NCBI GenBank assembly: GCA_017505745.1 | Contig: JAFVOP010000066.1 | Span: 1 to 40,995 of the forward strand | Direction: 5' to 3' | From: Clostridia bacterium | GTDB taxonomy: Bacteria; Bacillota; Clostridia; Oscillospirales; CAG-272 | DNA length: 40,995 nucleotides | In this document: piece after piece, positions 13,595 to 40,855 of the stretch | Position numbering within the stretch: position 1 is the first letter of the stretch | Layout of the letters: each line of letters begins with the position of its first letter | Made by a program: the position numbers and the translations under genes | Notes under the pieces: model-generated | What the model was told of the DNA's origin: nothing | Database searches by the model: none | Seen by the model: only the letters and a program-made list of their open reading frames with translations

Positions 13595-13959
13595 GGGGAA
13601 AACTTTTGGAAAAGTTTTCCCCAACGTGCTTGCACGTTTTACCCCATTTCAAAACTTTCCGCACATCTTTCTTGCTAAATTGGTTCGTTTAACGCGCTTT
13701 ATATATGCATTGGCTCCCACGAGCACTTTGGGACGGCTTCTTGCAAAGAAGCCTTCGACCACAAAGTGCTCCAAATAGTTAGTTTTGATATGGAAAATAT
13801 TCTATTTTACGCTAACGAAGTTTTAGTTGAAAAAAGTTTCTCCCCCGCTTGCAAGCAATGAACGAAACGCGCACGAAAGTAACCAATTTAGTAATAAAAA
13901 AGTGTGTAAAGTTCTTGAAAGGAGTCTGGGGAAAACTTCTTTTAAGAAGTTTTCCCCAG
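13595..13959. mobile_element. MITE-like element with inverted terminal hairpins
   Basis: This 365-bp non-coding element lies between the convergent malQ and cysteine desulfurase genes. The left end is the palindrome 13595-13622 (arms GGGGAAAACTTTT, loop GG), followed by the mini-hairpin ACGTGC-TT-GCACGT and TTTTACCCCATTTCAAAACTTT. The right end is the palindrome 13926-13959 (16-bp stem, loop TT), preceded by GTGTGTAAAGTTCTTGAAA. The two flanks align as inverted repeats of roughly 90 bp, including CTAAATTGGTT on the left and AACCAATTTAG on the right. A nested hairpin lies inside at 13721-13771. No convincing ORF is present. The structure suggests a nonautonomous element or a structured RNA. 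Mobility is inferred from repetition only. Confidence 0.7.
13721..13771 (+). repeat. Nested hairpin module, copy 1
   Basis: The outer stem GAGCACTTTG (13721-13730) pairs with CAAAGTGCTC (13762-13771). The inner stem GGCTTCTT (13735-13742) pairs with AAGAAGCC (13746-13753) around loop GCA. The bases TTCGACCA join the inner and outer 3' arms and are the same in copies 2 and 3. An A/T-rich tail ending in TTTTACGCTAACGAAG follows. Confidence 0.8.
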
Positions 13960-13969
13960 AAATCTATAA

Positions 13970-15142
13970 TTACCCTCTGTTCCGCCGGACGAGGCGGTCG
14001 AGGGCGGATTGCATTGCGGAAACGAGGGCGTCGACGTCCTCGTTTTGATTTTGCCGACCGAAGCTGATGCGAATGGAGCACTCGGCGTCAGCGGCGGAAA
14101 GCCCGAAGGCCAGGAGCGCGCGGCTGACCGTTGCGGCGTGCGACGAGCATGCCGAGCCTTGCGATACCGAGATCCCGCTCTCGGAGAGCGCGTGAAGCAT
14201 CGTTTCGCTGCGGATATCGGGCAGCGTCAGGTTCAGGATGTGCGGCGCGCAAGCCCCCGCGGGCAGATTGAGGCGCACGGGAAGCGACGAAAGCCGCTCG
14301 ACGGCGTAGGCACGGAGCGCGCGCAGGTGCGCCAGATCCGCGGTCAGGTTGGCGTAACCCTCCTTTGCCGCCGCGCCAAAGCCCGCGATTCCGATCACGT
14401 TTTCGGTTCCCGAACGGAATCCTCCCTCCTGACCGCCGCCAAGCAGTAGCGGGATCAGGTCGCGGCGCTTGAGGGCTTCGGGCGAGACGTAAAGAGCACC
14501 CACCCCCTTGGGACCGTGGATCTTGTGCGCGCTGAGCGTCACCAGATCGGCGTGGATCGCGGCAGGAGAGAGCCTGCCCTTGAGATAGCCCTGCACCGCG
14601 TCGGTGTGCGTCACGGTGTCGGGATTTTTCGCTTTTGCCAACGCAAAGGCGCGTGCGATATCGTATTGCGCCCCCGTTTCATTGTTCACCGCCATGAGCG
14701 TGACCAAAAAGGTGCTCGGAGTGAGAGATTTCTCAAATTGGGTGAAATCAAGCGCCCCGCCCTTGGTGGAGATGCGAACGACCTCAAATCCGTCGGCCTC
14801 GAGCGCGCGCAGAGCGTTTTCCACACCCGCATGCTCAGAATCGGTGGAAAGGATCCTGCCCCCCTTGCGGCGCGGTTTGGCGTAGGCGGTCCCGAGGATC
14901 ACCAGATTGTCCGCCTCGCTTCCGCAGGAGGTAAAAAAGAGCTTTCCCGCGTCGCGCATATTGCGAACCCCCAGCGATTGGAGGATCTGCCTACGCGCGT
15001 CTTCGATCAGCGTATGCGCCGCCTGCCCCGCAGGATGCAGAGACGATGGGTTTCCGTAGATCTCCATCGCGCGGCACATGGCGTCTTTGGCCGCCTCGCA
15101 CAGCGGCGTGGTGGCACTGTTGTCAAGATAAATATCCTTCAT
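13970..15142 (-). CDS. Cysteine desulfurase (NifS/IscS family)
   Basis: This 390-aa class V aminotransferase-fold PLP enzyme removes sulfur from cysteine as enzyme-bound persulfide. Motifs: MKDIYLDNSATTPL at the start, the HTDAVQ Asp/Gln segment (about 179), the SAHKIHGPKG PLP lysine (about 205), GGGQEGGFRSGTEN (about 236) and the active-site Cys in GSACSSH (about 326). The short form of the active-site loop fits the group II-like or ThiI-partner (tRNA thiolation) desulfurases of Firmicutes, but no IscU, SufU or ThiI gene is in the window, so the acceptor is unknown. It starts 25 nt after the lipoprotein gene and probably shares its transcript. AAGGAT lies 11 nt before the ATG. Confidence 0.94.
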   Translation of the reverse strand: MKDIYLDNSATTPLCEAAKDAMCRAMEIYGNPSSLHPAGQAAHTLIEDARRQILQSLGVRNMRDAGKLFFTSCGSEADNLVILGTAYAKPRRKGGRILSTDSEHAGVENALRALEADGFEVVRISTKGGALDFTQFEKSLTPSTFLVTLMAVNNETGAQYDIARAFALAKAKNPDTVTHTDAVQGYLKGRLSPAAIHADLVTLSAHKIHGPKGVGALYVSPEALKRRDLIPLLLGGGQEGGFRSGTENVIGIAGFGAAAKEGYANLTADLAHLRALRAYAVERLSSLPVRLNLPAGACAPHILNLTLPDIRSETMLHALSESGISVSQGSACSSHAATVSRALLAFGLSAADAECSIRISFGRQNQNEDVDALVSAMQSALDRLVRRNRG

Positions 15143-15167
15143 AAACCGTCAACATCCTTCGTTTCGT

Positions 15168-16253
15168 TCAACGGAATTCAAAAGCGTCCACCATGCGCTC
15201 GAAATCGGCCAGGTGGGCGTCAAAGAGTTCGGCACTTGCCGCCGTGTAGGTCATGCTGTATATGCAGCTCTTGTAGGCCGCAACCACTTGTTTGTAATAG
15301 AAATCTCTGCCGCCCACCGTATAACGGTAGGTGTACGCGGTGGCAAGGCGTCCGCCCAGATCCTGCTCGGTCTCGGTTTTCAGCAACTCGTACCCATCCT
15401 CATCGGCGGTGCTCTTCATCATATCCTCACACAGAGCAAAGAACTCAGCCACGCTCATGCTGTCGGCATCGGGCATATACGGCACCACGCTGACGTTGGT
15501 GCGGTCGCTCTCCAGATAGGCGGCGTAGATCGCCTCGTCGCCGTTGACCGTCCAATCGGTGGGCACGTAGAAGCGGTAGGCCACGTCTCCGTTAGAAGCA
15601 AGCTTCATGCCCTCGGGAGCATCGGCATCGGGATCGATGGGCTTGACGTAGGTGGAGGGCACGTATGCCTCGGCAAAAATGAAATTGGTGAGAATGCTCT
15701 CAATATGAGAAACCAGCGTAGCGTAAAGATCGTCGGCAACCGTAAAGGTGATCACGTAAAAGGCGTTGGCTTTTTCGGCCAGCACGTGTACCACGTGGAG
15801 CGTCTCTCCCTTCACGGTGGCCGTGAGGTGGTAGCGCTGCGCGTTGAGCGTTCCCAGCGTGGTGGCCGTGGTCTCCTCCTCTACGGCAGTTACGCTGCCG
15901 CCCAGGGCAATTGCCTCTACCGCGGGCTTACATTCCTGCTCCCAGAACCACGAAAGTCGCGCGCTCCCCTTGAGGTCCAGCGCCGCCATTTGGGTCTCTA
16001 ACTCCTCACTCACGGGGTATTTCACCGCGCTCACCGTGGATTGTTGGGTCATCGTAAAATAAGCGCCCGAAACGCCGTACGCCGTACTGACGTTCCAAAC
16101 CGAGGGAACGTACAAACGAAACTCTGCGCCCGCCGCGGTGGCGTTTTTCATACCGTCGGGCACCCCGTACTCCTTGGTCGCGCAGGAAACACAGGTCAAT
16201 GTCAGCGCAAGGCAAAGCAAGAGCAACAACCGGCTCGAAACTCGTTTTTTCAC
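15168..16253 (-). CDS. Lipoprotein with two related PsbP-like/DUF1795-type domains
   Basis: This 361-aa exported protein begins with VKKRVSSRLLLLLCLALTL and a lipobox TCVSC (Cys about 24). The mature part has two similar halves. Each starts with GMK-x-A and a Y(R)FYVP-x-W-x-V strand (EFRLYVPSVWNV near 49 and YRFYVPTDWTV near 227), suggesting tandem domains of the PsbP/DUF1795 fold. The function is unknown. The GTG at 16253 was chosen because GGAAGGGAG lies 9 nt upstream and the signal peptide starts there. A longer upstream reading frame would bury the signal. It precedes the cysteine desulfurase gene with a 25-nt gap. Confidence 0.8.
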   Translation of the reverse strand: MKKRVSSRLLLLLCLALTLTCVSCATKEYGVPDGMKNATAAGAEFRLYVPSVWNVSTAYGVSGAYFTMTQQSTVSAVKYPVSEELETQMAALDLKGSARLSWFWEQECKPAVEAIALGGSVTAVEEETTATTLGTLNAQRYHLTATVKGETLHVVHVLAEKANAFYVITFTVADDLYATLVSHIESILTNFIFAEAYVPSTYVKPIDPDADAPEGMKLASNGDVAYRFYVPTDWTVNGDEAIYAAYLESDRTNVSVVPYMPDADSMSVAEFFALCEDMMKSTADEDGYELLKTETEQDLGGRLATAYTYRYTVGGRDFYYKQVVAAYKSCIYSMTYTAASAELFDAHLADFERMVDAFEFR

Positions 16254-16320
16254 AGTCCAAGACTCCCTTCCAAGAGACAACCTGCCGTTTTGGGACGGCG
16301 AACTCCCCTGTATCTTTTGC

Positions 16321-16329
16321 ATTATACCA
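16321..16329 (-). promoter_or_regulatory. Extended -10 promoter of lipoprotein gene
   Basis: On minus, TGGTATAAT (TATAAT at 16321-16326 with an upstream TG) lies about 70 nt before the GTG start. The -35 is poor. Confidence 0.6.
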
Positions 16330-16408
16330 TATTTCCATTTGAATATCTTCAATATTCTGTTAATTTTTTAAGCAAAAGAACTCTTTTGCAAAAAAACGCG
16401 CCCCTCTC

Positions 16409-16437
16409 TTGCATTTTCCGTACGGATGTGGTACAAT
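16409..16437 (+). promoter_or_regulatory. Sigma-A promoter of aldolase gene
   Basis: TTGCAT (16409-16414), a 17-bp spacer and TACAAT (16432-16437) lie 42 bp before the ATG. Confidence 0.75.
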
Positions 16438-16478
16438 AGAGCGGTATTCATCGAAATTCCCTTACAAAGGAGACCAAC

Positions 16479-17504
16479 ATGCTATCGTTTGAAAGTGATT
16501 ATATTACCGGCGCGCACCCGAAGATCCTCGAAGCGCTCACCCGCACCAACCTGGAGCAGCATCCCGGCTACGGCGCTGACGTGTACTGCGAGCGCGCGAA
16601 GGAAAAGATCCGCGCCGCCTGCCAGGCCCCCAACGCCGACGTCCGCTTTCTGGTGGGTGGTACGCAGACCAACAAGATCGTGATCGGCACGGCGTTGGCC
16701 GGCTACGAGGGCGTGATCGCCGCCGAGACCGGACACGTCAGCTTGCACGAGGGAGGCGCGATCGAGTCCACGGGACACAAGGTGATCACGCTGCCCCACC
16801 AAAACGGAAAGCTCAACGCCGCCACCGTGGAGCAGTATCTGCTCGATTTTTACGCCGACGGCGCGCACGAGCACATGGTTGCCCCCGGCATGGTCTATAT
16901 TTCGCACCCCACCGAATACGGCACGCTCTATACCAAGGACGAGCTGACCGCACTCTCGCAGCTCTGCCGCCGTTATGAGCTTCCGCTCTTCCTCGACGGC
17001 GCGCGCCTTGGCTACGGCCTGATGAGCCTGCAAACCGACGTGACCCTGCCCGATATCGCCGCGCTCTGCGACGTCTTTTACATCGGCGGCACCAAGGTGG
17101 GCGCACTTTGCGGCGAGGCCGTGGTCTTTACCCGCAACAACACCCCCAAGAATTTCATCACGCTCGTCAAGCAACACGGTGCGCTTCTGGCAAAGGGACG
17201 TCTGCTCGGCGTGCAGTTTGACGTCCTCTTCACCGACGGGCTCTACTTCTCGATCAGCCGTCACGCCATCGACATGGCCGAGCGACTCAAGGAGCTCTTT
17301 GCAAGAAAGGGCTACCGCTTCTATATGGAGTCCCCCACCAACCAGCAGTTTATCATCCTGGAAAATGCGCAAATGGAGGCACTGAGCCAACGCGTGGCGT
17401 TCAGCTTCTGGGAAAAATACGACGAGACCCACACCGTGGTGCGCTTTGCCACCTCCTGGTCCACGTCTGAAGAGGACCTGCAAGCGCTCGAAGCGATTTT
17501 GTGA
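16479..17504 (+). CDS. Threonine aldolase-like PLP enzyme
   Basis: This 341-aa fold-type I PLP enzyme is of the beta-eliminating lyase/low-specificity L-threonine aldolase family, which cleaves L-threonine or allo-threonine to glycine and acetaldehyde. It begins FESDYITGAHPKILEAL, then shows FLVGGTQTNKI (about 57), HVSLHEGGAIE with the PLP-stacking His (about 85), the Asp/Arg motif LFLDGARLGYG (about 169) and the PLP lysine in YIGGTKVGALCGE (about 204). The length fits the family. AAAGGAG precedes the ATG. It is monocistronic, with its own promoter and terminator. The exact amino acid substrate is not certain. Confidence 0.92.
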   Translation: MLSFESDYITGAHPKILEALTRTNLEQHPGYGADVYCERAKEKIRAACQAPNADVRFLVGGTQTNKIVIGTALAGYEGVIAAETGHVSLHEGGAIESTGHKVITLPHQNGKLNAATVEQYLLDFYADGAHEHMVAPGMVYISHPTEYGTLYTKDELTALSQLCRRYELPLFLDGARLGYGLMSLQTDVTLPDIAALCDVFYIGGTKVGALCGEAVVFTRNNTPKNFITLVKQHGALLAKGRLLGVQFDVLFTDGLYFSISRHAIDMAERLKELFARKGYRFYMESPTNQQFIILENAQMEALSQRVAFSFWEKYDETHTVVRFATSWSTSEEDLQALEAIL

Positions 17505-17512
17505 GAGAGGAC

Positions 17513-17549
17513 CGACTCCGTCTGTTTTTGGCAGACGGGGTCGTTTTTT
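17513..17549 (+). terminator. Terminator of aldolase gene
   Basis: Arms CGACTCCGTCTG and CAGACGGGGTCG are followed by TTTTTT. Confidence 0.93.
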
Positions 17550-17627
17550 GTCGGTTCGCGAGGGCTTGTCAACGGTTTATTTTCAATTCGCACACAAATT
17601 AGTCTTGCAATTTATCTTATTTTGGGG

Positions 17628-17638
17628 TATGATATAAT
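17628..17638 (+). promoter_or_regulatory. Extended -10 promoter of DUF5685/J-domain operon
   Basis: TATGATATAAT (TATAAT at 17633-17638 with an upstream TG) lies 40 bp before the TTG start. A TTGCAA further up is 22 bp away, which is too far, so recognition probably relies on the extended -10. Confidence 0.65.
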
Positions 17639-17678
17639 AGATGGGATATGGATTCTTTTGGAAACGGAGGGAAACGCC

Positions 17679-18566
17679 TTGCTGGGATACGTAAAAACCG
17701 TGCCGTCGGAGCTTCGGGTACGCGAGCACACCTACTACCGCGCGCTCTATTGCGGACTTTGCAAGCGCATGGGAAAATGCACGGGACAATGCTCTCGCAT
17801 GACGCTCAGCTACGATTTCGTCTTTTTGGCGGCCGTACGCATGGCGATTACGGGAGAAGCGCCCAACATGAAGGCAGAGCGTTGCCTGCTCCACCCCTTC
17901 CGCAAGCGTCCCACGGCGCAGGCCTGCCACGCGCTTGACTACGCCGCCGACGCCTCCGCGCTCCTCTCCTATCACAAGCTCACCGACGATCTTACCGACG
18001 AGCACGGTCTGAAAAAGCTTCGCGCCGCTCTCGCCCGCCCCTTTCTCTCGGGCGCTTACCGCAGAGCCCGGCGGCGCCACCCCGATCTGAACGATACCAT
18101 CGCCGCGCATCTGCGCGAGATCTCCCGCTTTGAAACGGGGGAACGCCCCTTTGAGGGTGCCGACGCGATCGCCGAGCAGTTCGGGCAGCTGATGGAGGCC
18201 GTCTTTTCCGAAGGACTCACCGGCAGCGACGCGCGCATCGCGGGAGCCATCGGGCGCTCGGTGGGACATTGGATCTACCTGATCGACGCCGCCGACGATT
18301 TTGACGAGGACCGCAAGCAGGGGCGCTTCAACCCCTACCGCAAGCTCTTTGGCGACGAGCTGACCCCCGCGGACCGCGAAACGCTCCGTGTGGCGCTCAC
18401 CGTCCACCTGCTCGACGCCGACCGCGCCTTTGCGCTGATCGACCGCTTCCCCGCCCCCGAGCTGAAGGAAATCATCGCGAACATTCTCTACTTCGGGCTT
18501 CCCGCCACCGCCAAGCGCGTAACGGGAACGTCCCCAATGACAACGAAAGGCAACGAGATATCATGA
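17679..18566 (+). CDS. DUF5685 family protein
   Basis: This 295-aa, mostly helical soluble protein starts [36 protein letters not shown]. The GYVKP-like opening and YCGLC-x3-G motif are hallmarks of DUF5685, whose function is unknown. Later features are SYDFVFLA (about 48), HPFRKRP (about 72), [11 protein letters not shown] (about 95) and an Asp-rich [22 protein letters not shown] (about 210), which resembles the acidic helices of metal- or diphosphate-binding folds. TTG at 17679 was chosen because GGAGGG sits 7 nt upstream and it begins exactly at the conserved N-terminus. The stop overlaps the J-domain gene start (ATGA), so a joint role with Hsp70 is inferred. Confidence 0.85.
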
Positions 18567-19189
18567 AAAATCCTTACGAGGTGCTTGGCGTCGCTCCCAA
18601 CGCGAGCGACGAAGAGATCAAAAAAGCCTACCGCGAGCTGGCGCGCAAGTACCACCCCGACAAATACCGTGACAGCGATCTTGCCGATCTCGCCACCGAA
18701 AAGATGCAGGAGATCAACGCGGCGTATGACGAAATCCAAAAAATGCGCGCAGGTGGCAAGCATCAAAGCAAACAAGCCAACGGACGGACGTCCTACAACG
18801 GCAATCCTTACAGCGGCAGCACCAACCCCACCTTTGCACAGGTACGCCGCCTGATCAACGAGGGGGAGATCCTGCAGGCTGAACAGCTGCTTCGCGGCGT
18901 GGAGGCCTCGGGGCAAAACGCGGAATGGAACTTTTTGATGGGATGCGTGCTCTACAAGCGCGGGTATTTCCTGGATGCGCAAAAGCTGTTTGACCGCGCA
19001 TGCGCAATGGACCCGCAGAACGCCGAATACCGCGCCGCCTGCGATCGCTTGCGCCAGCAAAGCCAAACCTACGGCGGCGGCTACCGCACGGCCTCCTCGG
19101 ACGGCGGCTGCTGCGATTGCTGCACCTCTCTGATCTGCGCCGATTGCCTGTGCGAGTGCTGCGGCGGCGACCTGATCTCGTGCTGCTGA
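18563..19189 (+). CDS. J-domain protein with Cys-rich C-terminus
   Basis: This 208-aa protein starts with a J-domain ([33 protein letters not shown], residues 3-35, HPD intact), so it should stimulate the ATPase of a DnaK-type Hsp70. A TPR-like helical region follows at about 92-165. The last 28 residues contain 11 cysteines in CC and CxC pairs, suggesting metal binding. It lacks the Gly/Phe, zinc-finger and CTD regions of true DnaJ. It is translationally coupled to the DUF5685 gene, an arrangement I recall from other Clostridia. Confidence 0.9.
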
Positions 19190-19224
19190 TGACAACCATC
19201 CGAATCTGATTGCATGGAGGACTT

Positions 19225-19758
19225 ATGGCAGACCGCATCCGAAAACGAACCAAATATCTCACCGTAAGCGCCATGCTCTCTGCCTTGGGAGTGATCTTCC
19301 TGGCGCTGGGCGCCTTTATTGAGGTGCTGGATATCACCACCGCCGTCCTGGCATCAATGCTTTGCATCTACGCCGTCATCGAAATGAGCGGCGCATACCC
19401 CTGGGGCATCTGGGTCGTTACGTCGATCCTCTCCCTGCTCCTGCTCCCCATCAAAACTCCCGCGCTCTTCTACGCGCTCTTTGCCGGCTTTTACCCGATC
19501 CTCAAAGAAAAGCTGGAGCGCTTAAAGCGTCCGCTCGCATTCGTGCTCAAATTGGCGGTCTTTCACCTCTCACTCGGTGCGATCGTGCTGTTGCTCCGCC
19601 TCTTTTTTCCCGAGCAGCTCGATTGGGGCGGCATGCAGTGGCTCCCGATCGCAATGTACGTGCTGTGCGTGGCAGTATTTCTCCTTTACGATCTCGCTCT
19701 CACCCGCGTGATCACCTTCTATCTCATCCGCCTGCGGCAACGCTTTCGGATCAAATAA
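19225..19758 (+). CDS. Small integral membrane protein, possible ECF-transporter S-component-like
   Basis: This 177-aa very hydrophobic protein has about five predicted helices (13-35, 38-58, 62-90, 105-130, 143-165) and a basic N-terminus (MADRIRKRTKYLTVSAMLSALGVIFLALG). The TKYLTVSAMLSALGVI opening resembles S-components of energy-coupling-factor vitamin transporters. No ATPase or T-component gene is nearby, and the substrate motif cannot be read. ATG at 19225 was chosen over 19210 because GGAGG lies 5 nt upstream. It lies 35 nt after the J-domain gene and may be cotranscribed. Confidence 0.7.
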   Translation: MADRIRKRTKYLTVSAMLSALGVIFLALGAFIEVLDITTAVLASMLCIYAVIEMSGAYPWGIWVVTSILSLLLLPIKTPALFYALFAGFYPILKEKLERLKRPLAFVLKLAVFHLSLGAIVLLLRLFFPEQLDWGGMQWLPIAMYVLCVAVFLLYDLALTRVITFYLIRLRQRFRIK

Positions 19759-19861
19759 GGAAAAGATCTATCCCCCGCCTCCCCCTCCCCCTAAATGTCC
19801 CACGCGGAAGTCTGATTGGAAAAATATACGAAAAATGCGCGCGAAAAAAGAGCGGAAGCTC

Positions 19862-19890
19862 TTGACATTCGGCGCTTTTTTGTGTATAAT
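19862..19890 (+). promoter_or_regulatory. Sigma-A promoter of rny
   Basis: Perfect TTGACA (19862-19867), 17-bp spacer and perfect TATAAT (19885-19890) lie 80 bp before the ATG. Confidence 0.92.
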
Positions 19891-19969
19891 GATAGATGTA
19901 TGATTATATCTATTACTATCAGTTTAATTCATACAAATTTTTAGCAAAACCCAATTAAGGAGGTGTTTT

Positions 19970-21511: not shown

Positions 21512-21647
21512 GCAAAGCCGCCCCGCTACCGAAATCGGTATTACTGACTTTTTCCGAAGCACGGAATTTATCATATCCATTCGCATAGATTCGTATGATG
21601 AAAAAAACCGCCGCTTTTGCGGCGTCCGTATAAACAAACACGCAAAA
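21512..21647. other. Non-coding 3' region after rny
   Basis: Only small palindromes are seen here: TACCGA-AA-TCGGTA near 21528-21541 and GCCGC-TTTT-GCGGC near 21610-21623, without T-runs. The stretch 21687-21867 after the terminator also shows no gene. Confidence 0.5.
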
Positions 21648-21686
21648 AGGAGCCTCTTTTCAAAAAAGAGGCTCCTGATTTTTTTC
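21648..21686 (+). terminator. Terminator of rny
   Basis: Arms AGGAGCCTCTTTT and AAAAGAGGCTCCT (13 bp) with a 3-nt loop are followed by GATTTTTTTC. Confidence 0.92.
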
Positions 21687-21867
21687 AAATGAAGGGGACA
21701 TCCCCGCAAATACCCTGCAAGAACCAAACGTCCTTGCCATTCCCCCCTCGGGCTTGGGGTGGCAGGCGGAAAATGAATCGGAGCTTGCCCCACAAAATAG
21801 CAGGCTGAAAAAGTAAATCTGCGAAAATTCACGCGGAGTTCAAAAAAAGCCTGTATAATGGAAGGGA

Positions 21868-23046: not shown

Positions 23047-23078
23047 AACGGTCACCTCATGTTCGTTCAGATGCCCTC

Positions 23079-23107
23079 ATTATAGCACATCCAATTTGCT
23101 TTTGCAA
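23079..23107 (-). promoter_or_regulatory. Sigma-A promoter of amidohydrolase gene
   Basis: TTGCAA (23102-23107) and TATAAT (23079-23084) on minus are 17 bp apart. Confidence 0.82.
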
Positions 23108-23162
23108 GTCATTTCAAAACAAATTCATAAATCGAAATAAAAAAGGAGATATCCATATCCCT

Positions 23163-23870
23163 ATGAAGATCACCACGGTTCTTTTTGATCTGGACGGCAC
23201 GCTACTGCCGCTGGATCAGGACGCCTTTATGAAGCTCTATTTTGGCGGTCTCACGGCTGGGCTTGTCCCCTTCGGCTACGATCCCAAGGCGCTGGTCGAC
23301 GCAATCTGGGCAGGCACGGCAGACATGGTACGAAATGATGGCTCCAAAAGCAACGAACAGGTCTTTTGGGATCGTTTTGTTGCCATTTTTGGAGAGAAGA
23401 GCCTTGCCGACGTACCGCGCTTTGAGGCCTATTATCAAACCGATTTCGACAATGTGCGCGCCGCTTGCTCACAAGCTCCCGCGGCAAAGGAGATCGTCAA
23501 GGACCTGCAGGCACGCGGCAAACGCGTGGTCCTTGCCACCAATCCCCTCTTCCCTGCCATTGCCACCGAAAAGCGGATCGCCTGGGCCGGGCTTTCCCCC
23601 GATGACTTCCTTCTCTACACCACCTATGAAAACTCGCGCCATTGCAAGCCGAACCTGGATTATTACCGTGACATTCTCCGCGAGATCGACGCCGAGCCCT
23701 CGGAATGCCTGATGGTAGGAAACGACGTGGACGAGGACATGATCGCCTCCACGCTTGGCATGCAGGTCTTTCTTTTGACCGACTGCCTCCTCAACCGCCA
23801 TGACCTCCCCATCTCCCACTACCCTCACGGCAACTTTTCCGAGCTTGCAGAGTTTTTGCGGGGGATTTAA
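23163..23870 (+). CDS. HAD family hydrolase
   Basis: This 235-aa phosphatase-type protein carries all four HAD motifs: DLDGTLL (nucleophile Asp 9), the VVLATN Thr (about 126), the CKPN Lys (about 162) and VGNDVDEDM (about 185). A helical C1 cap lies between motifs I and II. The substrate is not predictable. GGAG lies 12 nt before the ATG. No clear promoter of its own is seen in the 56 bp after the divergent amidohydrolase promoter. It converges on the giant surface protein gene, with a hairpin repeat between them. Confidence 0.9.
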   Translation: MKITTVLFDLDGTLLPLDQDAFMKLYFGGLTAGLVPFGYDPKALVDAIWAGTADMVRNDGSKSNEQVFWDRFVAIFGEKSLADVPRFEAYYQTDFDNVRAACSQAPAAKEIVKDLQARGKRVVLATNPLFPAIATEKRIAWAGLSPDDFLLYTTYENSRHCKPNLDYYRDILREIDAEPSECLMVGNDVDEDMIASTLGMQVFLLTDCLLNRHDLPISHYPHGNFSELAEFLRGI

Positions 23871-23877
23871 AAACATA

Positions 23878-23936
23878 AGCTTCGTTAACGAAATACTATC
23901 TGGGGGAAACTTCTTGAAAGAAGTTTCCCCCAGATA
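23878..23936. repeat. Hairpin repeat, solo copy (convergent HAD/surface protein junction)
   Basis: A 19-bp perfect stem (TATCTGGGGGAAACTTCTT and its complement) with loop GA spans 23897-23936. The adjoining AAGCTTCGTTAACGAAATA is the inverse of the TTAACGAAGCTT-type tail that follows the nested hairpin module elsewhere, so this is the end of a once longer element. Confidence 0.85.
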
Positions 23937-23975
23937 AATATTATACTAAGAAAGTCTGTACTTCAAAATAGTCGG

Positions 23976-30978: not shown

Positions 30979-31007
30979 ATTGTACCACATCTGCGGCGTA
31001 TAATCAA
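30979..31007 (-). promoter_or_regulatory. Promoter of the acidic membrane protein operon
   Basis: TTGATT (31002-31007), a 17-bp spacer and TACAAT (30979-30984) on minus give a leader of about 80 nt. Confidence 0.7.
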
Positions 31008-31316
31008 TAAGATTGGAAAAAATATTTTCACTTTTTTTGCGACTTTTTCTTGGAAAATACCGCAAAATGCAAGGAAATTCCGCCATTTTCGGGGATTTGC
31101 GGTGATGCAGGGCACTTCTGAAAGCACGGGCACCGGTTACACAAATTTTGTCAGGAGCTTTTTAAAAAAAGGGGGCAACGCCGCCGTTTTCTATCGGCAA
31201 CCGCGTTCGCTTTGAGCACCGGAACAGCATTCAGCAAAAGAAACGGGGCCCCTACCTTTTGCGTACGAAAATCACTGACGGAGTAATCAAATAAGTACGT
31301 AAAATTTTGAAAAGAA
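31008..31316. other. Non-coding region between glpK and acidic protein operon
   Basis: No gene or RNA is recognised here. The right part (AGTAATCAAATAAGTACG, then TTTTGAAAAG) resembles the degenerate inner flank of the hairpin repeats and leads into the palindrome at 31317. Confidence 0.5.
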
Positions 31317-31350
31317 TGTGGGGAAATCTTTTCCAAAAGGTTTCCCCACA
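31317..31350. repeat. Hairpin repeat, solo copy after glpK
   Basis: A 16-bp stem (TGTGGGGAAATCTTTT with AAAAGGTTTCCCCACA, one G-T wobble) has loop CC. It lies 60 nt beyond the glpK stop and may end that transcript. Confidence 0.8.
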
Positions 31351-31409
31351 AAAATATTACGTTCACAAGCCTGTTCACAAAAGGAGGGATCCCCACGAAA
31401 AGAACCGTG

Positions 31410-32909: not shown

Positions 32910-32924
32910 ACGATACCTCCGAAA

Positions 32925-34606: not shown

Positions 34607-34649
34607 CCAATGTTCTCCCTTTCGTGAAATCGGTCTCTCTGTCATCCTC

Positions 34650-34678
34650 ATTATATCATACCCCTATTCAAAAATCAA
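34650..34678 (-). promoter_or_regulatory. Promoter of lipid kinase-glpK operon
   Basis: TTGATT (34673-34678), a 17-bp spacer containing TATGA and TATAAT (34650-34655) on minus: a perfect, TG-extended -10. Confidence 0.82.
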
Positions 34679-34740
34679 GTGCTTTTTTCGGGCGTTTTTC
34701 GTGGATCTCCGGAATCAGTTTCTCCAAAAAAGCAAAATTA

Positions 34741-34779
34741 AAAACCGGGGATGGAGCCGCACGGCTCTATCCCCGGTTT
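34741..34779 (-). terminator. Terminator of CNNM-decarboxylase operon
   Basis: Arms AAACCGGGGAT and ATCCCCGGTTT with an inner AGAGCCG/CGGCTCC stem, followed on minus by TTTTTAATTTT. Confidence 0.92.
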
Positions 34780-34787
34780 GTATGGAA

Positions 34788-35003
34788 TTATTTTTTATTG
34801 GATTTCGGTCTGGTTGCGTAGTTGAGGGCGCTGGTAGCGAGAATGATCAGTCCGATCACGATAAAGATACCGAGCATGCCCATGCCGATATATCCGAGGT
34901 TTTTGAGAAATTCCATCGGGCGAAAGACCAGGTCCAGGTCGCTGCTTTCCGCAGGCGTCGATTGCGCCAGGCGGGTGATGGCGGAAATCATGTGATTCAT
35001 CAT
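34788..35003 (-). CDS. OadG-like gamma subunit of Na+-pumping decarboxylase
   Basis: This 71-aa protein has one membrane helix (about residues 39-60, GMGMLGIFIVIGLIILATSAL) and a basic end. It sits directly behind the beta subunit gene, matching the size and position of OadG/gamma subunits that hold the decarboxylase complex together. AGGAGG lies upstream of the ATG pair. Its small size makes the family call mainly contextual. Confidence 0.72.
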   Translation of the reverse strand: MMNHMISAITRLAQSTPAESSDLDLVFRPMEFLKNLGYIGMGMLGIFIVIGLIILATSALNYATRPKSNKK

Positions 35004-35024
35004 TGTCTATCCTCCTCTTTCCAA

Positions 35025-36146
35025 TTACTTTAAGAAGAAGTTGAGGATCATACCGCCCGCGATGACCGACGCGATCTGTCCCGAAACGTTGACGCCGATC
35101 GAGTGCATGAGCAGGAAGTTTTGGGGATCCTCTTGCAGTCCCATTTTATGTACGATACGTCCCGACATGGGGAATGCCGAGATACCTGCCGCACCGATCA
35201 TAGGGTTGATCTTGTTCTTGGAGAAGAGGTTGATCAGCTTTGCAACCAGGATACCGCCGATGGTATCGAATACAAACGCGAACAGACCCAATCCCAGAAT
35301 GAGCAGGGTTGCGGGGGCGATGAAGTCGGCCGCCTGCATTTTGAAGGCGATCGAAATACCCAGGAAGATGGTGACGAGGTTTGCCAGCACCTTTTGCGCG
35401 GTATCCGAGAGCGACTCGAGCACACCGCACTCGCGGATGAGGTTACCGAACATCAGGAAACCGACCAGCGAAACGGCCGAGGGAGCGAAGAGTCCCGCGA
35501 TGAGCGTGATGACGATCGGGAACAGGATACGCGTGGTCTTGGAAACGCTCTTGGGCGCGTAAGGCATGCGGATGAGACGCTCCTTTTTGGTGGTCATCAT
35601 TTTAATAACGGGGGGCTGAATGATGGGCACGAGCGCCATGTAGGAGTAAGCCGCCACCATGATCGCGCCCTGGTAATTGGATTCCAGCGCCTGCGACACG
35701 GCGATCGCCGTGGGGCCGTCCGCCGCACCGATGATCGCGATCGACGCCGCGTCATTGATGTTCGGAAAGAAGATCGAAGCCAGGCACAGGGTAAAGAAGA
35801 TACCGAACTGCGCCGCCGCGCCGAAGATCATCAGCTTGGGGTTGGAGAGCAGCGGTCCGAAGTCGATCATCGCGCCGATTCCGATAAACAGGAGCAAGGG
35901 GAAGAGCTCGTTGGCAATTCCCGCGTTGTACAGGGTGGTAATGGGGCCGTGATCCAGCACCGCGTCCGCCATCGGGATGTTGACGAGGATCGCGCCAAAG
36001 CCCATGGGCAGGAGCAGCGTGGGCTCCATCTCAAACTTGATCGCCAGGAAGATCAGCAGTCCGCCGATGATCCACATGATCAGGTTTTTCCATCCGTCGT
36101 TTTCAATCATCCATTGAAAGCTTTCGTACAAAAAGTTCAAATTCAT
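35025..36146 (-). CDS. Na+-translocating decarboxylase beta subunit (OadB/GcdB/MmdB family)
   Basis: This 373-aa polytopic membrane protein couples decarboxylation of a biotin-bound carboxyl group to Na+ export. Family motifs are clear: NELFPLLLFIGIGAMIDFGPLL (about 80), the conserved Na+-site loop IIGAADGPTAIAVS (about 142), MPYAPKSVSKTTRILFPI (about 193) and the C-terminal GAAGISAFPMSGRIVHK with NVSGQIASVIAGG. The carboxyltransferase alpha and biotin carrier genes are not in the window, so the substrate (oxaloacetate, glutaconyl-CoA or methylmalonyl-CoA) is unknown. It follows the CNNM-type gene after 39 nt. AAGGA lies upstream. Confidence 0.94.
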   Translation of the reverse strand: MNLNFLYESFQWMIENDGWKNLIMWIIGGLLIFLAIKFEMEPTLLLPMGFGAILVNIPMADAVLDHGPITTLYNAGIANELFPLLLFIGIGAMIDFGPLLSNPKLMIFGAAAQFGIFFTLCLASIFFPNINDAASIAIIGAADGPTAIAVSQALESNYQGAIMVAAYSYMALVPIIQPPVIKMMTTKKERLIRMPYAPKSVSKTTRILFPIVITLIAGLFAPSAVSLVGFLMFGNLIRECGVLESLSDTAQKVLANLVTIFLGISIAFKMQAADFIAPATLLILGLGLFAFVFDTIGGILVAKLINLFSKNKINPMIGAAGISAFPMSGRIVHKMGLQEDPQNFLLMHSIGVNVSGQIASVIAGGMILNFFLK

Positions 36147-36185
36147 TGTTTCGTCCTTCTTTCCAAGGGGTTGTGTTAGCGTGGA

Positions 36186-37574
36186 TCAGGAGCGCACCGC
36201 TTCGGTGTCCGAAAGATCGGTGGAGGCAGCCGTTGCCTCCGCGTCCTCGTCCTGTGCGATCTCGGTCTTGATCACTTCGGTGGTTTCAATGCGCTTCTCG
36301 CGAACCGAGAGCACCTTCACCGCCAGATTTTCATAGGTAAATTCGGGCATGTCGTCCTCCTGCGGGATGTATTCCAGCTTGGAGAAGACAAAGCCTCCAA
36401 AGGTATCAAAGGTATTCTCTTCCCTGCGGAGAGTTACCCCGATCGCCTGCTCCACGTCCTCTACGGTCGCGCTTCCGGCGATCTGCCAACGGTTCTCCTC
36501 CAGCTCCACGATCTCGGGAGCCTCGGGGGCGTCGGTTTCATCGTAAATGCTTCCAACGATCTCTTCCAAGAGATTTTCCATCGTGATCAGACCCGCGATC
36601 TGGCCGTATTCGTCGATGACGAACGCCATATGGATCTGGTTTTCACGCATATCCCGGAACAGGCGGTTGGCAGGGAGCGATTCGGGCACGAATTTTGCCT
36701 CCTGCATCAGATCGTTGAGCGTGAGATCGGGCTGGTTTTGGAGCGCAAAGAGATATTCGCGCGCCAGCACGATGCCCTTGATGTCGTCGGTGTCCTCACC
36801 GCACACGGGAAAACGTGAAAATCCGCTTTCCTGCATCACGCGAAGGACCTCCTCGGGGGTATCGGTCTCGCGGAGCACCGTCATATCCGAGCGGCGCACC
36901 ATGATCTGCGAAACCGTTGTATTGTCAAATTCAAACACGTTCTCAATCATTTCCTTGGTATCGGTGTCGATCTCACCCTGCTCCTCCACCGCATCCACCA
37001 GGTCCAGGATATCCTCCTCGGATACGTCCTCGTTGCTTTCATGGGGGTTGATGCCAAAGAGGTGGAGCATGCCGTTGGTGCTTACCGAGAGCAGCCATAC
37101 CACGGGGCGCAACGCCACCGAAAGGCCTGCGATAAATCCGCACACGCGGCGTGCCAACCCCTCGGGGTTTCGCATGGCCACGCGCTTGGGCACCAGCTCT
37201 CCCAACACCAACGTGAAGAAAGAGAGAATGATGGTGATCAGGATCACCGAAATGGTATCCAGCACTGCGGGGGAAATAAAGGTGATCTTGCAGGTATGGA
37301 TCAGGAAATTGACCAAATACTCCGAAAATCCGTCGGCCGCGAATGCCGAGCCGAGGAATCCGGCCAGCGTGATACCAACCTGAATCGTGGAGAGAAAGCC
37401 CGTGGGCTCCTCCACCATGCGAAGCATTTTCTTTGCCTTCGCGTCACCTGCCTCCGCCTGACGGCGAAGCTTGACTTCATTGAGGGAAATTACCGCGATC
37501 TCCGACGCCGCAAAAAAGGCGTTGAGCGCGATCAGTACGATTTGAATGACGATCTGCCATATGACAGTATCCAT
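36186..37574 (-). CDS. CNNM/CorC-type transmembrane protein (hemolysin family)
   Basis: This 462-aa protein has the standard order: a DUF21/CNNM membrane domain with about four helices (residues 1-190; LNAFFAASEIAVISLNEVKLRR, VGITLAGFLGSAFAADGFSE, LVLGELVPKRVA), a CBS pair (about 205-325; VSQIMVRRSDMTVL, MAFVIDEYGQIAGLIT) and a CorC_HlyC domain (about 345-420). An acidic tail follows. Relatives (CorB/CorC, CNNM) are Na+-coupled Mg2+ exporters or regulators, so the hemolysin label is historical. ATG at 37574 has AAAGGAGA 12 nt upstream. The leader of about 250 nt contains a short ORF with a matching initiation site. Confidence 0.92.
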   Translation of the reverse strand: MDTVIWQIVIQIVLIALNAFFAASEIAVISLNEVKLRRQAEAGDAKAKKMLRMVEEPTGFLSTIQVGITLAGFLGSAFAADGFSEYLVNFLIHTCKITFISPAVLDTISVILITIILSFFTLVLGELVPKRVAMRNPEGLARRVCGFIAGLSVALRPVVWLLSVSTNGMLHLFGINPHESNEDVSEEDILDLVDAVEEQGEIDTDTKEMIENVFEFDNTTVSQIMVRRSDMTVLRETDTPEEVLRVMQESGFSRFPVCGEDTDDIKGIVLAREYLFALQNQPDLTLNDLMQEAKFVPESLPANRLFRDMRENQIHMAFVIDEYGQIAGLITMENLLEEIVGSIYDETDAPEAPEIVELEENRWQIAGSATVEDVEQAIGVTLRREENTFDTFGGFVFSKLEYIPQEDDMPEFTYENLAVKVLSVREKRIETTEVIKTEIAQDEDAEATAASTDLSDTEAVRS

Positions 37575-37677
37575 GATTAAAAATGTTCTCCTTTTCGATT
37601 TTTCAGAAATTCGACACAACCTACAACGTAAAACTCAACACGCTTGTGTCACGCGCGTGTTCCGTGCGGCATACGCG

Positions 37678-37746
37678 CTATCCGATCAATCGTTCCGGGG
37701 GCGTGGTTCGGTCGGCGTCCGCGGGATCAGAACCTTCCGTCTTCAT
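37678..37746 (-). CDS. Possible leader peptide upstream of CNNM gene
   Basis: A 22-codon ORF (MKTEGSDPADADRTTPPERL...) begins with ATG behind GAAAGGAGAACG, a nearly identical copy of the initiation site of the CNNM gene itself. It ends at TAG, and the frame then stays open past that codon to another TAG at 37621-37623. A functional uORF is possible. Coding is unproven. Confidence 0.3.
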   Translation of the reverse strand: MKTEGSDPADADRTTPPERLIG

Positions 37747-37832
37747 GATAAAATGACGTTCTCCTTTCTTTTTCATTGGCGATTTGTTCGGCTTTCCGGA
37801 TCCTGAAATCCAAAAAGCCCAAAATCAGTATC

Positions 37833-37861
37833 ATTATACCGCAAAAAGCTTTTAAAATCTA
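37833..37861 (-). promoter_or_regulatory. Probable promoter of CNNM operon
   Basis: TATAAT (37833-37838, minus) is perfect. The -35 at 17 bp (TAGATT, 37856-37861) is weak. It would give a leader of about 250 nt. Confidence 0.5.
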
Positions 37862-37927
37862 TATATAAATTGTTAACAATTATTTTTTTGCAAATATCAA
37901 AATAGGGGGGCTTTTTACGGGAAAGTA

Positions 37928-37936
37928 TGTTATAAT
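37928..37936 (+). promoter_or_regulatory. Extended -10 promoter of DUF1538 operon
   Basis: TGTTATAAT (TATAAT at 37931-37936) lies 44 bp before the TTG start, with no good -35. Confidence 0.6.
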
Positions 37937-37980
37937 ATAAATAACATGAAATTTTCTAGGAAAGGAGTGTGTATCTACAC

Positions 37981-39534
37981 TTGAAAGAACTCATCAAAGA
38001 CAAGCTGCACGAATCGCTGACGTCGATCCTGCCGATCGCCGGCATCGTGCTTTTGCTCAGCATCACGCTGGCCCCCATGAGCCCCAGCACCTTTCTGCTC
38101 TTTCTGCTGGGTGTGCTTTGCCTGATCGCGGGGCTTTCGATCTTTACGATGGGCGCGGAAATGTCGATGCAGCCGCTGGGGAATAAGCTGGGAGCCTCGC
38201 TGGCAACCTCGGGAAAGCTCTGGCTGATCGCGGGGGTGAGCTTTGTGATCGGAATTCTGGTCACGATCTCCGAGCCCGACCTGCAGATCCTTGCCGAGCA
38301 GGTCTCGGGCGTGGAAAACCTGCTTCTGATCCTCACCGTTTCGATCGGCGTTGGCATCTTTCTTGCCATTGCCATGCTCAAAATCGTCTTCCGCATCAAT
38401 CTTGCGGTCCTGCTTGCATTTTTTTACATCGCGGCATTCGTGCTTTGCCTCTTCATCTCGCCCGACTTCTGGTCGGTGGCCTTTGACTCGGGCGGAGTGA
38501 CTACGGGGCCTATGACGGTCCCCTTCATCATGGCGATCGGCGCAGGCGTTGCCAATATGCGCTCGGGCGAGGACGGACACAGCGACGCCTTCGGTCTGGT
38601 GGCGCTTTGCAGCATCGGCCCGATCCTTGCGGTGCTGATCCTCGGCATCGTATTTGACCTGAACGGCGGAGAATACGATCCCGAAAGCATGATCCCCATG
38701 GTGGAAAGCACGCGCTCAGCCATGCAGATCTATCTCCACGGCTTTGCGCAACACGCCAAGGACGTTGGCATGGCGCTCCTGCCCACCATCGTGTTTGCCG
38801 GGCTCTTCCAGCTCGTCACCCGCGCCTTCAGCGTCAAAAAGCTGATCCGTATCGGCGTTGGTATCGTTTATACCTTCGTAGGTCTGGTGGTCTTTCTTTC
38901 GGGCGCCAATGAGGGCTTCGTGCCTGCGGGCGCATCCTTGGGACACTCGATTGCCCTGCTGGGTAACGGCTACCTCCTGATCCCCGTGAGCATGCTGATC
39001 GGCTACTTCATCGTGAATGCCGAGCCTGCCGTGTACGTGCTCAACAAGCAGGTGGAGCAGATCACCGCAGGCGCGATCTCGGCTTCTACCATGCGGCTCA
39101 CCCTTTCCATCGGTGTGTCGGCGGCATTGGGACTTTCGATGCTCCGCATCCTCACCGGCATCTCGATCCTTTGGATCCTGATCCCCGGCTATGCGATCGC
39201 GCTGGGACTGAGCCTGTTCGTGCCGAAATTCTTTACGAGTATCGCCTTTGACTCGGGCGGAGTGGCCAGTGGCGTGATGATGAGCGCCTTCGTGCTTCCC
39301 CTCTCAATCAGCGCCTGCTCCGCGCTTGGCGGCAACGTGATGTCGCAGGCCTTTGGATGCGTGGCCTTCGTGGCGCTCACGCCGATCATCTCGATCCAGA
39401 TCTGCGGTCTGATCTATAAGATCAAGGAAAAGCGCGCGATCCGCCGCTTTACCTCCGAAACCGAGATCATTCTCGATTACTCCCCTACCCTTTCCAAAAC
39501 GCTTGCAAAACGTAACAAGGAGGTGAAATCCTGA
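37981..39534 (+). CDS. DUF1538 family membrane transporter
   Basis: This 517-aa polytopic protein contains two DUF1538 halves, each with the family motif FDSGGVTTGPMTVPF (about 165) or FDSGGVASGVMMSAF (about 420) inside re-entrant-looking hydrophobic stretches. DUF1538 pairs (UmpA/UmpB) have been reported as a Na+(Li+)/H+ antiporter system. Here both halves sit on one chain. The N-terminus is LKELIKDKLHESLTSILPI. TTG at 37981 is preferred: AAAGGAG lies 13 nt upstream with the small hairpin GTGT-ATCT-ACAC in between, while the in-frame GTG at 37969 would be only 1 nt from the ribosome site. The stop overlaps the PII-like gene, implying direct regulation. Confidence 0.88.
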   Translation: MKELIKDKLHESLTSILPIAGIVLLLSITLAPMSPSTFLLFLLGVLCLIAGLSIFTMGAEMSMQPLGNKLGASLATSGKLWLIAGVSFVIGILVTISEPDLQILAEQVSGVENLLLILTVSIGVGIFLAIAMLKIVFRINLAVLLAFFYIAAFVLCLFISPDFWSVAFDSGGVTTGPMTVPFIMAIGAGVANMRSGEDGHSDAFGLVALCSIGPILAVLILGIVFDLNGGEYDPESMIPMVESTRSAMQIYLHGFAQHAKDVGMALLPTIVFAGLFQLVTRAFSVKKLIRIGVGIVYTFVGLVVFLSGANEGFVPAGASLGHSIALLGNGYLLIPVSMLIGYFIVNAEPAVYVLNKQVEQITAGAISASTMRLTLSIGVSAALGLSMLRILTGISILWILIPGYAIALGLSLFVPKFFTSIAFDSGGVASGVMMSAFVLPLSISACSALGGNVMSQAFGCVAFVALTPIISIQICGLIYKIKEKRAIRRFTSETEIILDYSPTLSKTLAKRNKEVKS

Positions 39535-40259
39535 TGGCAAAACGGACCCCCACCCTTGAAAAACGTGCCAAGCTGCTCGTTTGCATCATCCGCAAGCAGG
39601 ACGAGATCGCTCTGACCGAGGCCGTGAACGAGTGTTGCGTTTCTCTGCACTTTTCGGGAATTGGCTTTGGCACCGCACGATCCAACTACATGAGTTATCT
39701 GGGACTGGACGAGATTGAAAAGCGCGTGGTCTATTCCCTCATCCCCAACTACTGCGAGTCCCGCGTTCTGCGCGCGATTAACCGCCGTTTGCGCCTCTAT
39801 CTCCAGGGCAACGGCATCGCCTTCACCATTCCGCTCTCGGGCATTTCCAGTATTGTCAGCAATGCCATTCTCACCACTCCCATGAAGGAAGACCCCGCCG
39901 AGCAACAAAAAAACACCCCCGAAAAGGAGCGTAACGCTATGCATGAACTGATCATTGCCGTTGTCAATCAAAAATATACCGATAAGGTCCTGGATTGCAG
40001 CCGCGCGGCCGGCGCCACGGGAGCTACCATCCTGCATACCCGCAGCGTCAACAACAAACAAGCCGAACAGCTGATCGGTACCTCCCTTCAACAGGAGACC
40101 GATACCATCGCCTTCCTCACCACCTACGAGTATAAAGCGCATATCATGGAAGCCATCCGCGAAAACGGCGGCCTCAAAACCGAAGGCGGCGCCGTCCTCT
40201 TCTCCCTCCCCGTCGATTCCCTCATCGGAATCGGCCGCTTCGATGATCAGGATCTGTAA
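39534..40259 (+). CDS. Tandem PII-like (GlnB-fold) regulatory protein
   Basis: This 241-aa soluble protein has two similar alpha/beta halves. The N-half (about 1-105, RAKLLVCIIRKQDEIALTEAVNECCVSLHF) and C-half (about 136-241, MHELIIAVVNQKYTDKVLDCSRAAGATGATILHTRSV) both follow the ferredoxin-like PII pattern. The linker is Glu/Lys-rich. It begins one base inside the DUF1538 stop codon, so it probably gates that transporter in response to a small ligand, as PII-like proteins do. The C-half begins with an internal ATG (39939) behind AAAAGGAG, so it may also be made separately. Confidence 0.85.
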   Translation: MAKRTPTLEKRAKLLVCIIRKQDEIALTEAVNECCVSLHFSGIGFGTARSNYMSYLGLDEIEKRVVYSLIPNYCESRVLRAINRRLRLYLQGNGIAFTIPLSGISSIVSNAILTTPMKEDPAEQQKNTPEKERNAMHELIIAVVNQKYTDKVLDCSRAAGATGATILHTRSVNNKQAEQLIGTSLQQETDTIAFLTTYEYKAHIMEAIRENGGLKTEGGAVLFSLPVDSLIGIGRFDDQDL

Positions 40260-40277
40260 AACCGTAACAGAATGTTC

Positions 40278-40313
40278 TCTGGGGGAAACTTCTTGTAAGA
40301 AGTTTCCCCCAGA
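40278..40313. repeat. Hairpin repeat at 3' end of DUF1538 operon
   Basis: A 17-bp perfect stem (TCTGGGGGAAACTTCTT and its complement) has loop GT. It is followed by CCCCTTTCAAGAACTTTACACAC, which is the inverse of the inner flank of the right end of the 13595-13959 element. Confidence 0.85.
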
Positions 40314-40460
40314 CCCCTTTCAAGAACTTTACACACATTTTTATTGCGAAATTGGCTACTTTCGTGCGCGTTTCGCCTTGCTTCTCAATTTGAGCAACGC
40401 TCAATTTGCCGTAGCGGCAACTGATGTTCGCTCTAAACGGTATAGCCGCGATGATCCCGC

Positions 40461-40511
40461 GAGCACTTTGGGACGGCTTCTTGCAGAGAAGCCTTCGACC
40501 ACAAAGTGCTC
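40461..40511 (+). repeat. Nested hairpin module, copy 2
   Basis: The same 10-bp outer stem as copy 1 (GAGCACTTTG at 40461, CAAAGTGCTC at 40502), with the same GGCTTC/GAAGCC inner stem and TTCGACCA joint. The following tail (CTATTTTACGTTAACGGAGC) is also shared. Confidence 0.82.
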
Positions 40512-40564
40512 CAAATAGTTCGTTTTGATATAGAAAATATCCTATTTTACGTTAACGGAGCTTT

Positions 40565-40624
40565 TGGGAAAAAGTTTTCCCCATCGTGCTCGCACGTTTT
40601 ACCCCATTTCAAAACTTTTCGCAC
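40565..40624. repeat. Degenerate hairpin repeat and conserved flank
   Basis: The left arm of the main palindrome is eroded (GGGAAAAAGTTTTCCCC). The mini-hairpin CGTGC-TC-GCACG (40585-40596) and flank TTTTACCCCATTTCAAAAC match those at 13624-13660. Confidence 0.7.
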
Positions 40625-40682
40625 TTGTTTGATTACTAGATTGCTTAATTTCGTGGGCGACAGATAATCAATTGCTCCCGCA

Positions 40683-40730
40683 AGCATTTAGGGCGGCTTC
40701 GCGTAGAGAAGCCTTCGACCACTAAATGCT
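40683..40730 (+). repeat. Nested hairpin module, copy 3 (compensated stem)
   Basis: The outer stem AGCATTTAG (40683-40691) pairs with CTAAATGCT (40722-40730), differing from copies 1 and 2 on both sides of the helix so that pairing is kept. The inner stem GGCTTC/GAAGCC and joint TTCGACCA are unchanged, while the inner loop differs. Confidence 0.82.
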
Positions 40731-40824
40731 CCACAAAGATAGTTTTTACACAGAAAACGTGCTATTTTACGTTAACAAAGCTTATAGGAAGAATATAAAA
40801 ATTCTATGTAAAAACGATCTTGTG

Positions 40825-40855
40825 GAGCACTTTGGGTGGTGGCACCAAAGTGCTC
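40825..40855 (-). repeat. Nested hairpin module, copy 4, inverted and shortened
   Basis: GAGCACTTTGG (40825-40835) pairs with CCAAAGTGCTC (40845-40855). The inner GGCTTC hairpin is replaced by a 9-nt loop. On minus the context (GCTCCCGCGAGCAC and, after it, CTCCACAAGATCG) matches the other copies, so this is an inverted, shortened copy. Confidence 0.7.

Follow-up and report, generated by a model that had tools for sequence, protein, structure and literature searches.

Hairpin modules at two intergenic loci

The 40,995-nucleotide contig JAFVOP010000066.1 of a Clostridia bacterium (order Oscillospirales, assembly GCA_017505745.1) is referred to here, as a whole, as the window. It carries four hairpin modules at two loci, members of a family of non-coding, intergenic palindromic repeats that is found in two genera of one bacterial family and is built around a core hairpin of approximately 30 to 50 nt. 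Copy 1 (13721-13771, forward strand) separates the end of a malQ-like gene from a NifS-like gene encoded on the opposite strand. Copies 2 (40461-40511) and 3 (40683-40730), likewise on the forward strand, and a further module on the reverse strand (40825-40855) lie at the contig end, after an open reading frame (ORF) that spans 39534-40259. An initial annotation had described these as three nested hairpins and one inverted simple hairpin, and we read all four in the same way; the observation is confirmed and is more general than was stated.

In copies 1 and 2 the outer stem GAGCACTTTG/CAAAGTGCTC is combined with an inner stem GGCTTC/GAAGCC and the joint TTCGACCA. Copy 3 has the same inner stem and joint, so that the inner stem is present in all three long-form copies as proposed, and its outer stem, AGCATTTAG/CTAAATGCT, is altered on both sides. 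The fourth module is an inverted short form without the inner hairpin that stands tail to tail with copy 3, and core lengths among the window modules range from 31 to 51 nt. A covariance model built from copies of the same genome returned four strong matches in the window, at 45 to 101 bits, and these are the four modules: 100.9 bits for copy 1 (over 13713-13786), 99.9 bits for copy 2, 86.3 bits for copy 3 and 45.0 bits for the short form (second score 78.1 bits). The ten other matches listed for the window reach 18.5 bits at most, and two of them are the reverse strand of copies 1 and 2. As evidenced by folding, six window stretches have z-scores of -3.2 to -5.3; two of 200 shuffles folded at least as well as copy 3, and none did so for the other five stretches. 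With up to two mismatches, GAAGCCTTCGACCA occurs four times in the window, three times exactly, versus 0.43 expected. A role other than termination had also been suggested, and this part of the proposal stands: a search of 13400-14100 and 40200-40995 turned up no terminator-like site, and a simple terminator is rejected. The accompanying suggestion of an RNA role is unsupported, given the scarcity of G-U pairs, the neutral orientation and the dispersed inverted copies described below.

Both loci are composite clusters with approximate limits. The first (13577-13962), flanked by the malQ-like and NifS-like genes that face each other, consists of a palindrome, a spacer motif, the hairpin, a tail, the inverted spacer motif and a second palindrome, and the second (40262-40971) holds three hairpin modules at the contig end. 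The flanking palindrome, T, lies at 13592-13622, 13925-13957, 40278-40310 and 40934-40964, and the spacer motif beside it, P, at 13647-13675 and 40319-40347 on the forward strand and, inverted, at 13891-13919 and 40901-40929 on the reverse strand. In this genome the core is found downstream of T, mostly 104 to 107 bases away and otherwise 101 to 193, with P in between and the tail after the core. Modules often stand tail to tail with a second copy, and inverted pairs are found inside larger inverted composites. In several composites complementary outer ends, recognized by eye and by folding, close the whole unit, which spans about 275 bases in one case (C89), and the ends of similarity differ from copy to copy. 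Note that T also occurs alone with partial element ends and no core, at 10431-10506, 23850-23968 and 31289-31384 of the window, and that these stretches resemble the ends of full composites. T and P are likewise present in congeners without a core match, such as genomes G005 and G025, and where core matches are few or absent (e.g. G003, G005, G008, G025) T-P by itself has matches at several places.

Anatomy of the core

Among 54 matches from the genome of the window (G000; 35 short, 19 long) and 56 from congeners, the core reads, in order, CAATAGCTCCCGC, the first arm of a stem (about 9 to 11 pairs), GG, a top, CC, the second arm and TCCA..TAGTTT. The top is either a plain loop, in which C occupies alignment columns 30, 31 and 33 in 52, 51 and 52 of 52 rows, or an inner hairpin with TTC, two less constrained bases, CC and an additional A after it on the 3' side; the two kinds co-occur in three species (G000, G007, G014). 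The conserved unpaired parts are thus CAATAGCTCCCGC before the stem, CC.C in the short-form loop, TTC..CC-A on the long-form 3' arm and TCCA..TAGTTT after the stem. The short-form alignment (A4) contains 16 of the 54 matches from G000 and 36 of the 56 congener matches, and the long-form alignment (A5) 11 and 15, respectively. Five congener matches were left out, of which two carry a long insert in the loop, two have longer inner hairpins and one resembles another palindrome; two visibly misaligned rows of A5 (L267) were kept. For the second genus, 22 of 27 matches were placed in one alignment (A6) and 19 in another (A7).

The sequence of the inner hairpin varies both between and within species, with GGCTTC/GAAGCC, AATTTC/GAAATT, CATGGGC/GCCCATG and AACGGC/GCCGTT as examples. 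The joint had been called invariant. It is indeed conserved in the window and in the family but not strictly so, reading TTC-N-R-CC-A over 26 long copies from three species with counts of T 25, T 24, C 21, C 22, C 26 and A 22. Apart from the free N (9 of 26), the commonest base accounts for 21 to 26 of 26 rows in the joint and for 11 to 24 in the columns of the inner arms, i.e. the joint is conserved beside changing arms. Between species the bulges of TTC and A on one side are retained, as is a C.T mismatch in the stem, and the flanking motifs are conserved in the two genera.

Further elaborations were seen at individual loci. In G006 two modules of locus L259, at 167 and 496, have an almost identical insert in the hairpin loop, which is long and partly self-complementary, and in the second genus (A7, e.g. 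L287, L293) small extra hairpins such as GGACCGGCCTCCCGGACGGTCC and GATTTCGCC..GGCGAAATC lie inside the unit. RNAalifold predicted 11 pairs for the longer unit of the second genus, the upstream part of which is not established as structured.

Distribution and copy number

A blastn search of the genome of the window with 111 bases around copy 1 yielded 43 matches at E<=10, and a covariance model built from 16 long copies yielded 67 at E<=0.01. In the genus, 16 of 35 genomes have matches, this one included; the richest congeners have 41, 36, 27, 26, 22 and 17, and the other nine have 1 to 6, some of them weak, and copy number is uneven, from 0 to 67. A second covariance model yielded at least 27 matches in another genus of the same family, spread over four genomes. 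Searches spanning more than 40 genomes used stricter filters and scored a limited number of candidates, and their counts are lower bounds and their absences soft: the second model matched at least 5 of 246 genomes and at least 2 of 71 genera, and in an order-wide search of 394 genomes the genome of the window was the sole match. A loose 17-mer scan of genome contigs gave at least 116 stretches, and 14 loci scored with the model had a single match at E<=0.1, an unconvincing one of 15.5 bits. As the 17-mer was too loose, absence outside the family is judged by the order-wide search of 394 genomes.

The 54 fetched copies of G000 comprise 36 distinct cores, and classes of up to six identical copies occur in different surroundings. 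Positions were listed for 59 copies, and 22 of these are at most 300 bases from a contig end, versus 3.1% expected at random; the assembly therefore breaks at these repeats, and copy number is uncertain. The contig of the window itself ends in a composite cluster (40262-40995). This stretch had no match in phage and plasmid collections, and a phage or plasmid element is accordingly rejected. In viral contigs two patterns retrieved 0 and 1 stretches, and the single one is GC-rich and, by eye, does not continue as a module. No paper describing the hairpin repeat was found in the literature, as judged by titles or the openings of abstracts.

Covariation of the stems

The two-sided change in the outer stem of copy 3, which had been taken as the signature of selection on base pairing, is real and is one of many: among 16 long copies of G000, 8 of 21 pairs carry changes on both sides. 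In this set 94.6% of cells are paired and 20 are double-changed, compared to 5.1 in shuffled alignments, and controls in which the arms were slid gave 0 to 5. The short form (52 rows, six species) is paired in 90.7% of cells and shows 59 double-changed cells versus 13.4 after shuffling (slides 0 to 31), and the long form (26 rows, three species) is paired in 90.0%, with 86 versus 35.3 (slides 9 to 33). Covariation is strong in both forms, with pairing kept and double-changed cells in excess of shuffles. Pairing is maintained while the sequence of the stem drifts.

Such a pattern might also arise without any function, if template switching between the arms during replication kept quasi-palindromes perfect and ordinary events of duplication and recombination spread them. 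In the short form the double changes come with few intermediates, which fits copying from arm to arm, and the composites do look like mosaics. However, the one-sided bulges (TTC and A) and the C.T mismatch, features that such copying would tend to remove, persist between species, and the flanking motifs are conserved in two genera. We consider this explanation improbable.

Folded DNA versus structured RNA

Where selection acts on pairing in RNA, G-U pairs would be expected to be tolerated and A-C mismatches would not, and we therefore counted both. With the outermost and the loop-adjacent pairs excluded, the short form has 499 Watson-Crick, 1 G-U, 3 A-C and 7 other cells. The long form, with the outermost and inner closing pairs excluded, has 399 Watson-Crick, 9 G-U, 7 A-C and 25 other cells, so that for both forms combined G-U is no commoner than A-C (10 vs 10), and seven pairs of the second genus gave 135 Watson-Crick, 0 G-U, 2 A-C and 17 other. 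In the own long alignment G-U occupies 11 of 332 cells, eight of them at the inner closing pair. As a control we counted eight distinct tRNAs located in loci of these genomes, which have 161 Watson-Crick, 11 G-U and 0 A-C cells, where the low A-C number is favored by the pairing requirement of ARAGORN itself. The G-U fraction of the short form (1/510) differs from that of the tRNAs (11/172) with p 1.9e-6, and the ratio of G-U to A-C (10:10 in the modules, 11:0 in the tRNAs) with p 0.005, both on related rows. The 42 distinct pairs of stem arms from 110 copies hold 10 G-U, 9 A-C and 18 other mismatches in a 9-base window that sometimes includes a loose outer base. As G-U pairs are nearly absent from the short form and show no excess over A-C, the covariation lacks the mark of RNA selection. 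This weakens the RNA reading and favors a DNA repeat.

The gene context was assessed with a codon-score gene call trained on nine genes of the window. None of 44 clusters of G000 lies inside a coding call, and the 25 sites with both neighbors called are convergent in 9, tandem in 14 and divergent in 2 cases. REP (repetitive extragenic palindromic) elements tend to avoid promoter regions, and the modules, with their few divergent sites, are similar in this respect. Single modules between tandem genes lie on the strand of the genes in 7 cases and on the opposite strand in 6, with no strand preference.

A structured RNA made from one strand, be it a processing signal, a protein-binding site or a regulator at gene ends, would account for the stable fold, the covariation and the conserved loop and joint as consequences of selection on the RNA fold, and the sites do face gene 3' ends more often. 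The G-U counts, the neutral orientation and a copy number that ranges so widely within one genus nevertheless speak against it. In Rfam only a tRNA in the window exceeded its gathering threshold, and ten matches obtained for 13400-14000 at a relaxed threshold were all far below their gathering scores, so that there is no Rfam match to the module and a known RNA family is rejected. Although we regard a structured RNA as unlikely overall, the G-U cells of the long form keep an RNA role alive for some copies.

Comparison with known repeat systems

REP families comprise sub-families with complementary stems, short as well as long self-complementary loops, inverted dimers and insertions inside other palindromes (PMC3733652), and the E. 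coli enzyme TnpA-REP requires a stem bulge and a GTAG tag and acts on one strand (PMC8266576). The modules correspond to the REP/BIME description of a high-copy intergenic palindrome of 20-50 nt (BIME, bacterial interspersed mosaic element). With REP, BIME and REPIN they share this size class, an intergenic position in at least tens of copies, sub-families of complementary stems, short and self-complementary long loops, inverted dimers and conserved bulges (PMC3733652, PMC8266576). They differ in having other flanking motifs and in lacking the GTAG/CGTC tag as a family feature: within the 8 bases before the stem GTAG is present on neither strand in 100 aligned rows (52 short, 26 long, 22 second genus), and CGTC occurs in none on the plus strand and in one on the minus strand. 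CTAC precedes the stem in 16 of the 100 rows (5, 1 and 10 in the three sets). G-T pairs, reported as frequent in GTAG stems, are nearly absent from the short-form stem.

It seems improbable, then, that these are classical REP/BIME elements moved by TnpA-REP (RAYT, the REP-associated tyrosine transposase) or by an IS200-type Y1 transposase. Two IS200-like Y1 genes are encoded in G000, and weaker or partial matches were found in G015 (a fragment of 49 residues) and, in the second genus, in G064 (one match, 24.7 bits). But PF01797, the Y1 family, has no match in G006, G007, G014, G017 and G022, each with 17 to 41 copies and together five of the seven genomes with at least 17 matches, nor in G124, G166 and G209, three of the four of the second genus; note that the genomes lacking a match are draft assemblies with a completeness of 78 to 97%. 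No module is present at any of nine Y1 loci, and IS200 ends are rejected as the source, as the two Y1 genes of G000 carry other ends by eye. If an enzyme is involved, it is probably not of the IS200/REP Y1 type.

The attC sites of integrons are recombination sites of folded single strands, with extrahelical bases, a variable top and the end boxes RYYYAAC and GTTRRRY. The modules resemble them in a fold with extrahelical bases and a variable top, but differ in their dispersed copies and in the absence of the end boxes, measured against this consensus: none of 110 copies has both, and the 3' box alone is present in 5. Miniature inverted-repeat transposable elements (MITEs) are non-coding, have terminal inverted repeats and measure 50-500 bp. 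Like the modules they are intergenic, multi-copy and foldable as composites, with inverted ends that several copies here also seem to have (PMC10969869), but for the modules no target-site duplication was shown and no parent insertion sequence was found. The BOX elements of pneumococci likewise are intergenic and modular repeats, with a core that can fold and parts that may be present or missing (PMC3049150). Their sequence is different, and they repeat parts in tandem, in contrast to the exchange of inner hairpins inside the loop observed here.

Neighboring genes

The malQ-like gene beside copy 1 is split over three ORFs (12090-12590, 12624-12983, 12999-13520), the first and last of which were scanned and match Pfam GH77, and this may reflect an assembly error or a broken gene. 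At 37969-39534 a single protein contains two DUF1538 stretches with sub-cut-off matches to the antiporter subunits UmpA and UmpB, which suggests a fused pair. A large protein at 4620-7541 has a match to a leucine-rich-repeat adhesin far below the cut-off.

Discussion

Among bacterial palindromes that may spread in the form of folded single strands, the best-known example is that of the tagged REP elements with their transposase. The dispersed copies described here, in inverted pairs and composites, point to a mobile or mobilized DNA palindrome, and we consider it probable that the modules are a mobile palindromic DNA repeat of REP or MITE habit that is copied within genomes and whose fold is read as folded DNA. 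On this reading, copying inside individual genomes would have multiplied the elements, and the fold would be kept because a recombinase or transposase acting in trans reads the hairpin, most likely as a single strand. The one-sided bulges would then mark the strand, which is the role of a stem bulge with the REP enzyme of E. coli. We infer the step from a maintained fold to recognition by an enzyme as folded DNA. A more specific proposal, which we put forward tentatively and rate as possible rather than probable, is that the modules are recognition sites of an undescribed recombination system outside the Y1/HUH-REP type that would read the unpaired joint and loop bases of the folded strand, leaving the stem free to change and allowing new inner hairpins to be grafted into the loop.

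Several observations weigh against a mobile DNA repeat. Same-genome copies and related rows are not independent, so that the shuffle counts overstate significance, and the slid controls of the short form reach their 31 double-changed cells at +3. Further pair types show no excess over shuffles (13 vs 14.1 in the own long, 11 vs 12.5 in the short and 26 vs 24.8 in the long alignment), as would result if many copies had inherited a small number of events. In the second genus 85.6% of cells are paired and 11 are double-changed versus 3.7 after shuffling, but the number of double-changed pairs (3 vs 2.7) is no better than in shuffles, and stem support there is therefore weak. The long form retains its nine G-U cells, and several identical copies lie at contig ends, where a few may represent a single assembly gap seen from both sides. 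No gene-bearing copy was found among seven ORFs scanned in three stretches with neighboring copies, where family matches are ordinary: a sulfate permease and a MATE protein (L243), an oxidoreductase (L252) and an RluA-type pseudouridine synthase (L212), whose ORF overlaps an antisense ORF without a match. The left end gave 57 matches in G000, and by eye no pair flanked a gene-sized insert (40 of 67 candidates scored, genome 87% complete). Target-site duplications were not clear by eye in the flanks examined, and no pair of filled and empty sites was shown, the nearest congeners being approximately 81% identical at malQ.

Covariation in repeats thus need not mean RNA, and counting G-U against A-C cells helps to separate DNA from RNA. 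If the modules are indeed a mobile palindrome of this kind, an untagged REP-like family without a Y1 match in most of its copy-rich genomes would imply either that a second enzyme recognizes folded DNA or that such repeats spread by different means.

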